A stretch of 64,000 nt of DNA from Bifidobacterium aquikefiri (GTDB lineage: Bacteria > Actinomycetota > Actinomycetes > Actinomycetales > Bifidobacteriaceae): NCBI RefSeq assembly GCF_002259795.1, contig NZ_MWXA01000003.1, positions 124,001 to 188,000 of the forward strand, read 5' to 3'. This document shows, piece after piece, positions 51,585-58,621 of this stretch (the first letter of the stretch is position 1; each line of letters begins with the position of its first letter). A program made the position numbers and the translations under genes. The notes beneath the pieces are model-generated. The model was not told where the DNA came from, ran no database searches, and saw nothing but the letters and a program-made list of their open reading frames with translations.

Positions 51585-54320
51585 ATGGAACAGAAATTCA
51601 CCACGTTGGCACAACAGGCAATTGGTGATGCGATTCAAAGCGCATCAGCTGCAGGCAATGCGCAGGTCGACACTCTGCATCTGCTGGATTCGTTGATGCG
51701 TCAACAAGGAGGAGTCGTCGGCGCTCTGCTCAAGGAGGCGGGCGGTGACTCCCAGCAGATTGGTGCTCAGGTGCGCAATGCGCTCGTGGAGCTGCCGGCT
51801 GCAAGCGGTTCAAGCACTGCTCAGCCACAGGCGAGCCGTCAGCTTACCGTTGCCCTGACCCAGGCTGAACATGAGATGCAGCACATGGGAGACGATTATG
51901 TCTCTACGGAACATTTGCTGATTGCCATTGCAGTGGGACCATCGCAGGCCGCGGATATCTTGCGCAAGTCTGGCATCACTCCGGAGAATCTGCGCAAGGT
52001 GATTCCAAGCGTGCGTGGGGGAGCGAAGGTCACCAGTCCAGACGCCGAGGGCAATTACAAGGCATTGGAGAAGTACTCATCCGATCTGACAGCTCAGGCG
52101 AAGGAAGGCAAGCTCGATCCGGTCATCGGCCGTGATCAGGAGATTCGCCGCGTCATTCAGATTCTCAGTCGTAGAACCAAGAACAACCCGGTGCTGATCG
52201 GAGAGCCTGGTGTCGGCAAGACAGCCGTCGTCGAAGGTCTCGCGCAGCGGATCGTCGCGGGCGACGTACCGACTGGTCTACAGGGCAAGAAGTTGATCTC
52301 TCTGGATCTGGGTTCGATGGTTGCGGGCAGCAAGTACCGTGGCGAATTCGAGGAACGATTGAAGTCAGTGCTCAACGAGATCAAGAGCGCCAATGGAGAG
52401 GTCATCACCTTCATCGATGAGATTCATACTATTGTAGGCGCGGGTGCTGCTGAAGGATCGATGGATGCCGGCAACATGCTCAAGCCCATGCTCGCTCGCG
52501 GCGAGCTGCGTCTGATCGGCGCGACGACACTCGACGAATACCGCGAGAACATTGAGAAGGATCCTGCACTTGAACGCAGATTCCAGCAGGTGTTTGTCGG
52601 GGAGCCATCGGTTGAGGATACCGTTGCCATCCTTCGTGGCTTGAAGCAGCGGTACGAGGCGCACCACAAGGTGACTATCGGTGACGATGCCTTGGTTGCA
52701 GCAGCGACACTCTCGAATCGATACATTACCGGTCGCCAATTGCCAGACAAGGCGATTGACCTGGTTGACGAGGCAGCGGCCCATCTTCGCATGGAGCTCG
52801 ATTCGCAGCCTGAGGAAATCGATGAATTGCAGCGTAAGGTAACGCGTCTCGAAATGGAGGAGATGCAGCTGAAAAAGGCCGAAGATCCTGCGTCCAAGGA
52901 CCGTTATGAGAAATTGCAGTCTGATCTGGCTGATACCAAGGAAAAGCTTGGTGGGCTGACGGCTCGGTGGAACGCCGAGAAGGCAGGCCACAACAAGATC
53001 GGTGATTTGCGTGCCCAATTGGATGCCAAGCGCGTCGATGCTGACAAGGCGACACGTGAAGGCAACCTTGAAGAGGCCTCGCGCATTCTCTATGGCGAAA
53101 TTCCAGCGATTCAGAAGGAGTTGGCAGCCGCCGAGAACGCTGCGGACGAATCTAACGAGCAGCATGATGGAAATACTGATGAAGGTGCCGATATTGCAGG
53201 CGGTCCTGCTGAAGAGCCAATGGTTCCTGATCATGTCGATGCCGATTCCGTCGCAGAAATCGTCGCGGATTGGACCGGCATTCCTGTAGGCCGTCTGATG
53301 CAAGGTGAGAACGAGAAGCTCCTGCATATGGAAGACACCTTGGGCAGGCGTGTCATCGGTCAGAAAACCGCCATTAGTGCAGTCTCTGATGCGGTTCGTC
53401 GCTCTCGTGCAGGAATCTCCGACCCTGACAGACCAACCGGTTCATTCATGTTCCTCGGTCCTACTGGTGTAGGCAAGACTGAACTGGCGAAAGCGCTCGC
53501 AGACTTCCTCTTTGATGACGAGAAGGCCATGGTGCGCATCGACATGAGTGAATACATGGAGAAGGCATCGGTGTCTCGGCTCATTGGTGCGGCTCCGGGC
53601 TATGTCGGTTATGAAGAGGGCGGCCAGCTCACTGAAGCGATTCGCCGTCGTCCATATTCGGTCGTGCTGTTCGATGAGGTTGAAAAGGCCAATTCCGAGG
53701 TATTCGACATCCTGCTGCAGGTGCTTGACGATGGTCGACTGACCGATGGCCAAGGCAGAACCGTGGATTTCAAGAACACGATTCTGATCATGACCTCAAA
53801 TCTGGGATCACAGTTCCTGATTGACGATTCGCTCGATAAGGAAGCGAAGCATCGTGCCGTTATGGATGCGGTGCACGCTCACTTCAAGCCTGAATTCCTC
53901 AATCGACTCGATGAGATGGTGGTGTTTGATCCTCTCACACGTGAGGAATTGGCAGGTATCGTCAACATCCAGGTCAACCAGGTTGCCGCGCGTCTGACCG
54001 ACCGTAGAATCATGCTTGATGTAACGGATTCTGCTCGTGAGTGGCTCGCAGATGCCGGCTATGACCCGGCCTATGGTGCACGTCCATTGCGTCGGCTGGT
54101 ACAGACCGAGGTTGGTGATCAGCTCGCAAGAATGCTGCTTGCCGGCAAGATTCACGATGGCGATACCGTACTGGTTGATCAGACGGGTGGTGAGCATCTT
54201 GAACTCACCGCATGGCCAACTGACAATCTGGTCAGCGACGATACGTCGACATCATCAGGCAATGGCAATGATGTGCACGTTGATGGAATCAGCGAGGATC
54301 CGCCAGCTGAGAACAGGTAA
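51585..54320 (+). CDS. clpB: ATP-dependent disaggregase ClpB
   Basis: A 911-residue Hsp100 chaperone: N-domain (residues ~1-145), AAA+ 1 with [13 protein letters not shown] and [15 protein letters not shown], coiled-coil middle domain (~405-545), and AAA+ 2 with [14 protein letters not shown] and [11 protein letters not shown] plus a sensor-2 GARPLRR. It carries an extra acidic segment in the middle domain end ([18 protein letters not shown]). It rescues aggregated proteins with DnaK. TTGGAGGAAAT precedes ATG 51585. A HAIR operator lies about 130 bases upstream. Confidence 0.97.
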
Positions 54321-54375: not shown

Positions 54376-56316
54376 CTAGATTTGGGTCACGATATGTGGA
54401 GTCCGATGGACAATGTCAGACTCCACATATTCCCATGTGTGCTTGATATCGGTCTTTGAGAGACGGTGGGCATTGATGATGACGCATAGGAGCGAACATG
54501 TCATCGCCAGTCCTGCTATGGCAGGTGTAAGCAGCCATCCGGTGAAGGGATAGAGAATACCCATGGCAAACGGTATGCCAACGACGTTGTAGATCAATGC
54601 CCAAACGAGATTCTCGCGCATATTGCCAATGGTTTGTCGAGAGAGCGATATGGCATGTAACACTCCCTGCATGTCGCCGCTAAGAATCGTAATATCTGCC
54701 GACTGCATGGCTTGATTGGATGCCGTACCGAGGGCGAAGGCAACATCGGCTTCATCGAATGCCAGGGTATCTTTCTCGCTGTCGCCAACCATGGCGACCA
54801 ACCCACTGCCCGAGTTCTGATCGACGAAGTGGCGTATCCATTGAGCCATTTCAACATTGCGCTCATGCAATGAAGGTTGGGGCTTGTGCTGAATGTCGGA
54901 TTGCATGTTTGCGTCATTCGGCACCGCTAGCGGAATGATTTCGTCTACGCCAAATTCGGATGCCTGACGCATCGTGTCGGCGCTCGTGTCGTGTGTAAAC
55001 ATGCCAATCGAAATTCCCGCCTTGTGCAGCGCTGCTGAGGTTTCCTTGGGATTTCTCGTGTCGTGGGTGGAGAGCATGTCAGCTTCGAAGAAAATCTTGG
55101 TAATGCTGCGCGCTCTTGACAATGACAGGCCGGAAGACATGAGAATGCCTTGGGTTGCCCCCAGATTCATTGCTACGAAAGCGGAAAGCGGTGTCGCCAG
55201 GGCGAGGGCGCAGGGGCAGGCGACGATCAGCACGCTGATTCCTGTAACCAAGGCATGTGAAAGGCGTGGTTGTGGCCCGACGACAATCCAGATCGCGAAG
55301 GTCCAGATGGCCAGAATGATGACTGCTGTCACGATGATTCTGCTGAGCCTGAGTGCGAGTGTCTGCAATGGTGCAGAAGTGCTGCGAGCCTTGGAAACCA
55401 AGGCAATGATGTGTCCGAGAACGCTGTTCGTAGCGATGGCGGTGACCTGCACAAGAATCGAACCTTGAACGACGAGTGAAGTCGCGCAGACTTTGCGGCC
55501 ATACTCGATATGGATGGATTGACTGTTGCCTGTTATTGAGGAGTCATCGATTCTTGCAGAGCCTCCGACAACCAGTCCGTCCGCAGGGATGCGCTCGCCA
55601 ACGCCGACGAGCACCACGTCGCCGGATCGTAACGTCGAGGTTTCGGCATCTTCGATGGGGATTGCATCGAGATTGAGATTGTCGTTCGTATGATTGCCCG
55701 TTTTCAGAGAGGAAGCAACCTGTGCGGACACCTTATGGGAATTTTGCGGATATAGCCGTTGCAATGCCGAAACCGCCTCGCCGGAACCGGCGCGAACCTT
55801 ATCTTCCAGAAGTTTGCCCAGCAAGACCAGGGTGATGATGATGCCGACTGATTCAAAATAGGGATCCCGTGATCCGACGGGCAGTACATCCGGTGCGAAG
55901 CATACAAAAAGGCTGTAGAGATATGCGGCCCAAGCGCCGAGTGAGACGATGGAATCGATGTTCGGTGCACGATGGACAATGCCGCGCCAGCCATCATGAT
56001 GAATGGTTCTGCCACAATAAAACATTACTGGCGTGATGAGTATTGCCTGAATCCAAGGACTGCGGAGCCATTGAGGTACCAGGATATCGCTGAGCAAGGG
56101 AAGCATGATGATCAGAAAGACCGGTATCGTCAGTAACGCCGCAATGATGAGCAGGCGTTGCGTCATGGTAATGCTGCTGGGGGAATCCTTGTCGGGTGGC
56201 TCACCGATAGGGACGCTCTCCATCTGACCTTTCGGAAAGAAGAACCACAGCATGAGCCAGGTCAAGGCTCCTGCAACGACTATGGTGATTCCAAGCATGA
56301 ATATGTCGAATCCCAT
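54376..56316 (-). CDS. Degenerate P1B-type ATPase-like membrane protein (catalytic motifs lost)
   Basis: A 646-residue intact frame with the membrane plan of copper-type P1B ATPases: about eight helices, the CPC metal motif at 367-369 (VACPCALALATPL) and the YN of the seventh helix at 576-577. The energy-coupling parts are changed. TGES reads TGNS (262-265); DKTGT reads EADML (411-415); GDGxND reads GDSEKD (511-516); and the nucleotide-binding domain with its HP motif is absent, since the P-domain half resumes directly (HDTRNPKETSAALHKAGI). No N-terminal CxxC metal domain is seen. It cannot follow the normal phosphoenzyme cycle. AGGGAGGGTGA precedes ATG 56316. Confidence 0.88.
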   Translation of the reverse strand: MGFDIFMLGITIVVAGALTWLMLWFFFPKGQMESVPIGEPPDKDSPSSITMTQRLLIIAALLTIPVFLIIMLPLLSDILVPQWLRSPWIQAILITPVMFYCGRTIHHDGWRGIVHRAPNIDSIVSLGAWAAYLYSLFVCFAPDVLPVGSRDPYFESVGIIITLVLLGKLLEDKVRAGSGEAVSALQRLYPQNSHKVSAQVASSLKTGNHTNDNLNLDAIPIEDAETSTLRSGDVVLVGVGERIPADGLVVGGSARIDDSSITGNSQSIHIEYGRKVCATSLVVQGSILVQVTAIATNSVLGHIIALVSKARSTSAPLQTLALRLSRIIVTAVIILAIWTFAIWIVVGPQPRLSHALVTGISVLIVACPCALALATPLSAFVAMNLGATQGILMSSGLSLSRARSITKIFFEADMLSTHDTRNPKETSAALHKAGISIGMFTHDTSADTMRQASEFGVDEIIPLAVPNDANMQSDIQHKPQPSLHERNVEMAQWIRHFVDQNSGSGLVAMVGDSEKDTLAFDEADVAFALGTASNQAMQSADITILSGDMQGVLHAISLSRQTIGNMRENLVWALIYNVVGIPFAMGILYPFTGWLLTPAIAGLAMTCSLLCVIINAHRLSKTDIKHTWEYVESDIVHRTPHIVTQI

Positions 56317-56492
56317 TCACCCTCCCTGCGTGGGTATGGCAGCTCATTTTTCGTCCAGCGATGGATGCAATGCACGGGCATTGCAGCAATGCTCCCATCA
56401 TCTTCTCACTGATTGCCGGTCAATGGCGTAAAGTTCAGGCTCAAATGCGCCGATATTACGAAGCGTCCACACTTGCTGATTCTATAGAACAT

Positions 56493-57911
56493 ATGTTCGA
56501 AACTGCCTCATCTATTATCATGCTCCTTGGCCTCGCGGTGATCACCGCCATACTTGGCTTGGCAATTGGCTGGCTGCTGGGCAGGAATCAAGGTTCTGCA
56601 CATGCAGAGAACAACAGTGCTGAAAGCTTGAACCAACTGCAAGCGGAATCTGCAATGCTCAAGGACCGTCTTGAGCAGGCAAACGCTGGGGTCATTCAGT
56701 TCAAGACACAGGCGGTTGCCTTGCAGGAACAGCTGGTGTATGTAAAGAACCAATTGAGCCAGGCGCAGGCCGATGAACGCATGCGACTGCAACATGAGCG
56801 CGAGCGAGCAGATGCTGAAGCTGAGAAGAAACGCGAAGAGCAGGCAAAAACCATGCAGGAGCAAAGCAAGGTACTCAGTGCATTGGCACCTGTGCAGAAG
56901 AATCTCGATGCCCTGCAGCACAAGGTTGCGCAGATTGAAGAGGGCAGAAAGCACGAGATGGGTGCTCTCGATCAGCAATTGAAGGGACTCGGCGAGCAGC
57001 AGCTACGGCTCGGCCGCGAGACGAGCTCGTTGGCATCCGCATTGCGCAACAATAAGGTCCGAGGAGCATGGGGCGAGGCACAGCTCAAGAATATTGTCGA
57101 ATCCGCGGGTTTGCTTGAACATGTCGATTTTGACACTCAGGTTGTTGTTGAAGACGGCGACGGCAAGGTATATCGACCTGACATGGTGGTGCATCTTCCC
57201 GGCGGCAAAAGCATTCCCATTGATGCGAAGGCTCCATATTCGAACTATCAACGCGCGTGTGAGATTCCAGATACGGCTTCCGAAGATGAAATCAATCGTC
57301 GATCCGAACTGTTGAAGGCGCATGCGAAGGATCTGCGAGAGCATGTCAGGGCGTTGGGAGACAAAGCGTACTGGAATGCGTTCAAGACCGCCCCTGACTT
57401 TGTGATCGCATTCATTCCCAATGAATCCCTGCTGCAAGCAGGGCTGGAATCCGATCCGGCATTGATGGACGATGCCTTTAATCGCAAGGTTGCGCTCACA
57501 TCACCAGTAACGCTTTGGGCTGTTCTGAAATCTGTCGCGTATGCATGGCAGCAGCAGAGTCTGAGTGATGATGCCAATACCTTGTTCGAGCTGACCCGTC
57601 GTCTCTATGACCGTCTCTATACATTGGGCTCCCATGCCAACGCACTGGGCAAGTCGATCACCAATTCAGTGAAGGCATATAACAAGTTCGCAGCAACGCT
57701 CGAATCTCGGGTATTGGTCACCGCGCGCAAACTCGAGAAACTCGATAGTTCAAAGGTCATCGCAGAGGTGAGCCCGATAGAACCCAATAATGCTGACATC
57801 AGAGAACTCACGGCAGCAGAACTTGTCGACACTGATGACACGGATGACACGGATGACACTGGCGACGGTGGAGACACCGATGACAGTGGCGACACAGTTT
57901 CGAAGTCATGA
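56493..57911 (+). CDS. rmuC: RmuC family protein
   Basis: A 472-residue protein: an N-terminal membrane helix (IIMLLGLAVITAILGLAIGWLLG), ~170 residues of coiled coil, then the RmuC domain (LRNNKVRGAWGEAQLKNIVESAGLLEHVDFDTQ, PDMVVHLPGGKSIPIDAKAPYSNYQ, AFIPNESLLQAGL, TPVTLWAVLKSVAYAWQQ-like block). RmuC limits DNA inversion at short repeats and resembles a nuclease fold. The tail is an acidic DDTDDTDDTGD repeat. No ribosome site precedes ATG 56493; a TATAGA at 56483 suggests a leaderless start. It is divergent from the P1B-like gene. Confidence 0.92.
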   Translation: MFETASSIIMLLGLAVITAILGLAIGWLLGRNQGSAHAENNSAESLNQLQAESAMLKDRLEQANAGVIQFKTQAVALQEQLVYVKNQLSQAQADERMRLQHERERADAEAEKKREEQAKTMQEQSKVLSALAPVQKNLDALQHKVAQIEEGRKHEMGALDQQLKGLGEQQLRLGRETSSLASALRNNKVRGAWGEAQLKNIVESAGLLEHVDFDTQVVVEDGDGKVYRPDMVVHLPGGKSIPIDAKAPYSNYQRACEIPDTASEDEINRRSELLKAHAKDLREHVRALGDKAYWNAFKTAPDFVIAFIPNESLLQAGLESDPALMDDAFNRKVALTSPVTLWAVLKSVAYAWQQQSLSDDANTLFELTRRLYDRLYTLGSHANALGKSITNSVKAYNKFAATLESRVLVTARKLEKLDSSKVIAEVSPIEPNNADIRELTAAELVDTDDTDDTDDTGDGGDTDDSGDTVSKS

Positions 57912-57925
57912 GATAGGCTGTAGCC

Positions 57926-58621
57926 ATGAAGTCGAAACATGGTTCAGAAGAATTGAGTGACGCTTCTTGCGCAATCCTTGCCAAGAAGCTTGCCCGTTCC
58001 ATACAGGGCAAGGCCTTCAGTGAACTTGCTGATGTCACCTTCGATCACCGTGGTGCGGTGCTTATTGGCAGGGTGTTCATCAAGTCGTTGCAACGTTGCG
58101 GTTACGATCTTTCAGATTTTGATGCGGTTGGGGCGCTTACCTCGGCCGCGGTACCAATTGTCGACGCAATAATCCATACAGCGGCTGCACAGGGCAGCGA
58201 ATTGAATGCATTCGTCATGGATTTTGTGTATCCCAGCATCAAAGGTCCTTCCATTGCGGGCAAGCGGGTACTGCTGGTCGATTCATGGCTGAGCGAGAAA
58301 TCATATATTCAAACGTCTTCGCTGGTCACATTGCGCGATGGCAATGAACTCGGACTTGACTTCGGCATCATTACGAAGGAGGGTGCGACGGTCGTCGCCA
58401 TTGCCAGCCTGATTGGATCTCAACAGCAATTCGGGCATGCACCCAAGTCGGATCCGAGTCCACGGTCCTTCGAGATCGAAGCCGTGAATCCGGCGACACA
58501 GGAACATGCGACAATACCCTTTGTCATGGTTTTCGACGAAGACACACTGCGATCGCAGCTTCCCGCCGATTCAGATACCACTGTTAGATCTGAACGCGGC
58601 ATGGAGGATACTGAAGCGTGA
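57926..58621 (+). CDS. Degenerate phosphoribosyltransferase-like protein (PyrE-like)
   Basis: A 231-residue protein with the layout of a type I phosphoribosyltransferase: FDAVGALTSAAVPIVDAII (residues 65-83) stands where orotate PRTases have GG-x-GA, and GKRVLLVDSWLSEKS (112-126) stands where the PRPP motif VLVVDDxxTTG is expected. The second acidic residue and the TTG are gone. It may be an inactive or repurposed PRTase. The C-terminal ~60 residues are polar. It overlaps the next gene by 4 bases (GTGA), so it is co-translated with a SpoU methyltransferase. Confidence 0.7.
   Translation: MKSKHGSEELSDASCAILAKKLARSIQGKAFSELADVTFDHRGAVLIGRVFIKSLQRCGYDLSDFDAVGALTSAAVPIVDAIIHTAAAQGSELNAFVMDFVYPSIKGPSIAGKRVLLVDSWLSEKSYIQTSSLVTLRDGNELGLDFGIITKEGATVVAIASLIGSQQQFGHAPKSDPSPRSFEIEAVNPATQEHATIPFVMVFDEDTLRSQLPADSDTTVRSERGMEDTEA

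Follow-up and report, generated by a model that had tools for sequence, protein, structure and literature searches.

A pseudo-P1B-ATPase of Bifidobacterium aquikefiri is probably a retained, non-pumping descendant of an N-domain-less copper pump

The nucleotide-binding domain (N-domain) is one of the defining parts of P-type ATPases. In a stretch of 64,000 nucleotides from Bifidobacterium aquikefiri (assembly GCF_002259795.1, contig NZ_MWXA01000003.1, positions 124,001 to 188,000; hereafter the window), one gene encodes a protein that resembles a copper-transporting P1B-ATPase and has neither an N-domain nor an intact catalytic motif. Such a gene raises the question of whether it is decaying or retained and, if it is retained, from what kind of pump it descends. 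A preliminary description, based on the letters of the window, had proposed a retained pseudo-ATPase rather than a decaying gene. Here, we follow up this proposal with homologues from the genus and the family, structure prediction, a search for operators and an analysis of selection. Genomes and loci are cited by our own handles (G and L numbers, respectively).

The gene lies on the minus strand, a point on which the preliminary description was silent, and is open from ATG to stop over 646 codons, with no stop or frameshift inside; the plus-strand reading of the same interval contains 17 stops. The ribosome site announced in that description was found as AGGGAGGG, and its readings of the five motifs are all correct at the residues listed in Table 1. 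CPC in TM6 and YN in TM7 are thus those of a P1B-1 CopA, but TGES, DKTGT and GDGxND are replaced, with a glutamate at the position of the DKTGT aspartate.

Table 1. Features of the window discussed in the text, with coordinates in the window
Feature	Coordinates	Strand	Basis
clpB, conserved neighbour	51585..54320	+	Pfam, synteny
N-domain-less pseudo-P1B-ATPase, 646 aa	54376..56316	-	open frame, Pfam E1-E2_ATPase, AF2 model, Foldseek
YN of TM7, residues 576-577, kept	54586..54591	-	sequence motif
P-like domain, residues 394-553, without inserted N-domain	54658..55137	-	alignment, AF2
GDSEKD replacing GDGxND, residues 511-516	54769..54786	-	sequence motif
EADML replacing DKTGT, residues 411-415	55072..55086	-	sequence motif
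CPC copper motif in TM6, residues 367-369, kept	55210..55218	-	sequence; TM5-6 dN/dS 0.028, equal to own CopA
A-like domain, residues 179-312	55381..55782	-	Pfam, AF2, dN/dS 0.25 vs 0.13 in own CopA
TGNS replacing TGES, residues 262-265	55522..55533	-	sequence motif
Ribosome site	56320..56327	-	sequence
rmuC, conserved neighbour on the other side	56361..57911	+	Pfam RmuC 9.7e-90, synteny

The missing N-domain is borne out by Pfam, by alignment and by structure prediction. Pfam assigns E1-E2_ATPase to the protein (1.6e-42) and HAD profiles match below threshold only; the NCBIfam copper ATPase model TIGR01511 scores 316 bits, under its cut-off of 397. Alignment with LpCopA (3rfu) leaves out the N-domain. 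The AlphaFold2 (AF2) model, computed from an alignment of 32 homologues (mean pLDDT 83.4), predicts A-like and P-like folds on a P1B membrane core; the strand at residues 405-411 leads into helices at 413-417 and 423-432, which leaves no space for an N-domain. A nucleotide-binding domain with an HP motif is absent from sequence, alignment and model, and no N-domain was seen elsewhere in the gene in the sequence or the AF2 models. In Foldseek the top solved match is LpCopA (4bbj, E = 2.7e-29), and 7r0g_A gives a TM score of 0.69. The protein therefore resembles CopA (LpCopA 3rfu/4bbj, 7r0g) in its membrane fold, CPC, YN and A-like and P-like domains; unlike CopA, it lacks the N-domain and the three catalytic motifs and stays under the TIGR01511 cut-off.

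All 27 genomes examined from the genus carry a homologue of the window gene; we judge this sample to include B. asteroides, B. psychraerophilum, [B.] indicum and Bombiscardovia coagulans. None of the 27 carries the catalytic motifs, and in the 11 aligned rows DKTGT and GDGxND are absent throughout. Twenty-six copies are single open frames, across divergences with dS > 1; the copy of G015 is split in two by a frameshift (L081:7880-7960), either a true frameshift or a sequencing error. The homologues of G005 and G016, 85% and 76% identical to the window protein, have the same structure, and a sequencing or assembly error in the window was rejected on this ground. More variation is seen at single positions and in the A domain. 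Aspartate occupies the nucleophile position in 11 of 13 pseudo-ATPase rows and glutamate in the window protein and G005; the window clade and G023/G024 retain CPC, the second cysteine of which is alanine or threonine in asteroides-like rows. The A domain is skipped by the profile match in G001, G002, G012, G021 and G026, and intermediate forms of about 460 aa are without it. The window genome (2.4 Mb, 18 contigs) also encodes a full CopA, a 966-aa frame on another contig, and every genome of the genus likewise has a full CopA with an N-domain.

Selection on the gene was estimated by pairwise Nei-Gojobori dN/dS. In the genus pairs of the window gene the ratio is 0.081-0.255 (12 finite pairs of 13, one saturated), that is, about 0.1 rather than the value near 1 that the preliminary description had named as the mark of a young pseudogene. 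With the gene lacking stops and frameshifts as well, and with homologues in all 27 genomes, a young pseudogene was rejected and the earlier proposal of a retained pseudo-ATPase gains support. For the window genome and G005 the value is 0.145, compared with 0.154 for the full CopAs of the same two genomes, and seven pairs of the N-domain-less relatives described below give 0.066-0.202. By region, the values for the pseudo-ATPase, CopA and one N-domain-less pair are 0.028, 0.028 and 0.028 in TM5-6 with the CPC motif; 0.024, 0.037 and 0.047 in TM7-8; 0.252, 0.134 and 0.119 in the A domain; and 0.121, 0.131 and 0.029 in the P domain. In the window protein, constraint on the membrane core thus equals that in a working pump, and constraint on the A domain is relaxed.

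The origin of such a protein is suggested by relatives in the sister genera, which were collected by searching 189 genomes of the family with a profile and by scanning named genomes (59 loci, some from MAGs); a direct scan of genome contigs with the single protein returned no relative, whereas the profile scan found them. At 39 of the 59 named loci the protein has no N-domain and carries TGES, DKTGT, GDG[IV]ND and a cupredoxin motif. Thirty-seven of these 39 have a YHS motif, and 37 have [ST]GDx by the pattern used, one of the two others reading SGDT. The remaining 20 loci comprise 18 eroded forms, a normal ATPase (L131) and the mis-framed L094, which was left out of the N-domain-less count for its wrong frame and whose genome (G090) has an N-domain-less locus. 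DKTGT and SGD are 43-51 residues apart in the N-domain-less proteins (64 in Scardovia wiggsiae), compared with 147 in L131, and the P-domain junction is conserved among these loci. Species with this form include B. thermophilum, B. boum, B. reuteri, B. callitrichos, B. biavatii and B. minimum. Pfam assigns Cupredoxin_1, E1-E2_ATPase and YHS to the protein of B. thermophilum, together with the second half only of the HAD profile; the AF2 model of this protein is of moderate quality (pLDDT 71, pTM 0.66). As judged from their sequences, these relatives keep the motifs for both phosphorylation and dephosphorylation under strong selection without an N-domain. Since sister-genus homologues that lack the N-domain retain TGES, DKTGT and GDGxND, the preliminary description, which had listed these losses together, is to be corrected in one respect: loss of the N-domain preceded that of the catalytic residues.

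This form appears to be confined to one family. In 394 genomes of the class and 396 of the order (the order sample includes family members), searched with a profile of the P-domain junction, the whole junction was matched at E < 1e-48, among the matches listed, only by N-domain-less loci of the Bifidobacteriaceae. Of the rows from outside the family, two start near position 1 (G901, G836) and have normal N-domains, and three more start at 7-9 (G812, G643, G759). In the literature searched, no comparable P-type ATPase was reported, whether without an N-domain or as a pseudo-ATPase. Within the family, the window protein also shares a homologous membrane core with the cupredoxin-CopA-YHS ATPase of its own genome (G000:C11, L084). 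Cupredoxin and YHS are common to the N-domain-less relatives and the full CopAs of cupredoxin type but are absent from the window gene; the full CopAs have an N-domain (a DKTGT-to-GDG gap of 196-248 aa in cupredoxin-type rows) and usually a CsoR-type operator, of which the window gene has neither. The combination of an N-terminal cupredoxin with a C-terminal YHS domain, seen in the window genome's own CopA (L084:6133-9006) and in the N-domain-less relatives, is an unusual architecture.

Gene order ties the window gene to the same lineage. At the own-genus loci examined, clpB is adjacent in 11 of 11 and rmuC lies on the other side in 10; at the remaining locus (L079) the rmuC frame was not picked, yet its downstream neighbours are present. 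Among 11 N-domain-less loci, clpB adjoins five and rmuC eight. With these the window gene shares its clpB/rmuC location and the absence of the N-domain; it has none of their catalytic motifs, cupredoxin, YHS or CsoR-type operator. Where a full CopA exists, the gene at this site is eroded, to about 280-740 aa. In B. bombi, B. moukalabense, B. ruminantium and B. mongoliense the site holds membrane-only remnants of about 270-310 aa (L138, L139, L142 and L143; 291-306 aa in three, 272 aa aligned in B. bombi), which keep the N-terminal helix, TMA-B, TM1-5 and the outer loops without CPC, A or P domain. Eroded forms of other lineages have lost CPC and even TM6-8, so that copper binding cannot be a role common to all. 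On the far side of rmuC, a 231-aa frame at 57926-58621 of the window adjoins that gene; it is conserved in 16 of 21 compared regions and has no Pfam match at E 0.01.

A tree of the membrane core (205 columns, 63 rows; L150, L153 and L174 were left out as redundant or truncated) joins the window protein with G005 and G016 (100/100), and then with B. psychraerophilum and G024 (95/88). A single clade of N-domain-less and eroded rows was not rejected (AU p = 0.61), nor was a single clade of all eroded rows (p = 0.637), which the free tree split. These tests fit a history in which the N-domain would have been lost once and the catalytic residues once or a few times thereafter.

The distribution of the two forms follows that of the full CopA. 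In the largest sister genus (g5), where N-domain-less and eroded forms were called by hand among the matches listed, 47 genomes have the former and 40 the latter. A P1B N-domain, as recognized by a profile (A2) built from full CopAs, was matched in only 5 of the 47 as against 40 of the 40, again among the matches listed (Fisher p = 1.7e-19, phylogeny ignored). The five exceptions are G053, G088, G140, G141 and G143, the match in the last (L197) being a P1B ATPase without cupredoxin. Eleven further g5 genomes have a P1B N-domain match and neither form called, among the matches listed; a full CopA does not, therefore, require the relic. The presence of a candidate operator divides the forms in a similar manner. 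We searched upstream regions, to a depth that varied by gene, with a relaxed pattern for the palindrome ATACCCCnnnGGGGTAT, which we take to be the CsoR site. It was found upstream of 38 of 46 N-domain-less loci (43 distinct, 37 with the operator), mostly 59-171 bases before the start, and of 12 of 21 full CopA loci, that of the window genome included. It occurs upstream of 1 of 51 eroded loci (48 distinct, 1 with the operator), the sole case being L178 in G138, and of 0 of 23 own-genus loci, the window gene among those without one. A repressor of the CsoR family (PF02583) adjoins both an N-domain-less gene (L069) and the window genome's own CopA (L084). Since the window gene is without the operator of its catalytic relatives and of its own CopA, a copper-induced role is less likely for it.

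Taken together, we favour, with a probability of roughly 0.55, the reading that the window gene descends from an N-domain-less copper pump of the Bifidobacteriaceae, probably driven by a small phosphodonor, and that it has been retained in a form that no longer pumps but still has a copper site. A copper P1B-ATPase of the family would have lost its N-domain with the phosphorylation machinery whole and, behind a CsoR-type operator, would probably work as the copper exporter where the cell has no other copper ATPase. Owing to the lack of an N-domain, the aspartate of this pump is probably phosphorylated by a small phosphodonor, for which acetyl phosphate from the phosphoketolase pathway is the best candidate; phosphoketolase (PF03894) was present in 12 of 12 genomes tried, which is consistent with such a supply and no more. 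Beside a full CopA, as in all 27 genomes of the genus, the operator, cupredoxin, YHS and catalytic residues would then have been lost and the gene would persist, encoding a membrane protein that does not pump. Lacking the necessary residues, the window protein cannot go through a phosphorylation cycle. From the pump-level constraint on CPC and YN we infer that the most likely role of the window-clade protein is to bind Cu(I) but not to transport it and, given the lack of an operator, that the protein is constitutive, perhaps as a partner, buffer or regulator next to CopA. Several points count against this reading, among them the loss of CPC in eroded forms of other lineages and the eleven g5 genomes with an N-domain match but neither form called. 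In addition, D322 of the LAD motif is missing from the window clade, which also carries S609>L, the operator match is missing at 8 of the 46 N-domain-less loci, and profile A2 could miss a separate N-domain protein that has diverged strongly. Its boldest form is tentative and, as a whole, rather doubtful: that the N-domain-less ATPases are not run by ATP at all, that phosphoketolase-derived acetyl phosphate phosphorylates their aspartate directly and makes the N-domain dispensable, and that the window lineage turned this pump into a constitutive pseudo-pump that binds Cu(I), alongside a full CopA that was either kept or regained.

The gene might instead be a slowly decaying relic, an N-domain-less pump made redundant by a full CopA whose frame is merely not yet lost. 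The frameshifted copy of G015, the CopA genomes without a relic, the relaxed A domain of the window clade and the progressive loss of domains, with dN/dS of 0.21-0.50 (8 distinct finite pairs) in the short forms of the sister genus, all speak for slow decay. Nevertheless, we consider it unlikely, as 26 of 27 copies have stayed open where dS exceeds 1, and the whole-gene ratio and that of TM5-8 (0.02-0.03) are those of a constrained gene and of a working CopA, respectively. It is distinctly improbable that the N-domain is supplied in trans, in heteromers that pair the N-domain-less pumps, and perhaps the window protein, with a separate N-domain protein or a second P-type ATPase. In the window genus CopA could be such a partner, as every genome has one, but 42 of the 47 N-domain-less g5 genomes are without a P1B N-domain match among the matches listed, all matches listed lie in frames of at least 344 aa with no free-standing N-domain seen, and the window protein itself lacks the residues that an N-domain would serve. 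The kept CPC and YN, the constraint on TM5-8 and the lack of a copper-inducible operator would also suit a pump core that, released from the ATPase cycle, serves as a passive channel or carrier for Cu(I). An ungated copper leak would be costly, however, and with eroded relatives devoid of copper ligands this explanation could hold for the window clade only; we regard it as very improbable.

Known systems offer partial parallels to the non-pumping descendant favoured here. The eukaryotic protein TMEM94/ERMA has a P-type-like fold and a disputed ATPase status (PMC12134183), which makes it the nearest published debate to the window protein. Compared by description only, the two are alike in a P-type-ATPase-like architecture with doubtful catalysis; TMEM94/ERMA differs in being eukaryotic, not P1B and equipped with an N-like domain, CTD3. 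For the proposed phosphodonor, two studies report that acetyl phosphate drives Ca2+ transport by SERCA (PMC7961605) and that FITC-blocked H,K-ATPase still hydrolyses acetyl phosphate (PMC4215238); P-type chemistry can accept a small phosphodonor with the nucleotide site unused, although both pumps, unlike the N-domain-less ones, possess N-domains and normally use ATP as fuel.

Across dozens of species, the N-domain-less family retains all other catalytic motifs; it is preceded by a copper-type operator and apparently provides the sole copper ATPase of the cell. It thus offers a natural experiment for asking what purpose the N-domain serves and whether a small phosphodonor can run a P-type pump. 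At a single locus, the series from a catalytic N-domain-less pump through a pseudo-ATPase to a membrane piece of 300 aa shows a pump turned into a pseudoenzyme and its parts kept by selection.
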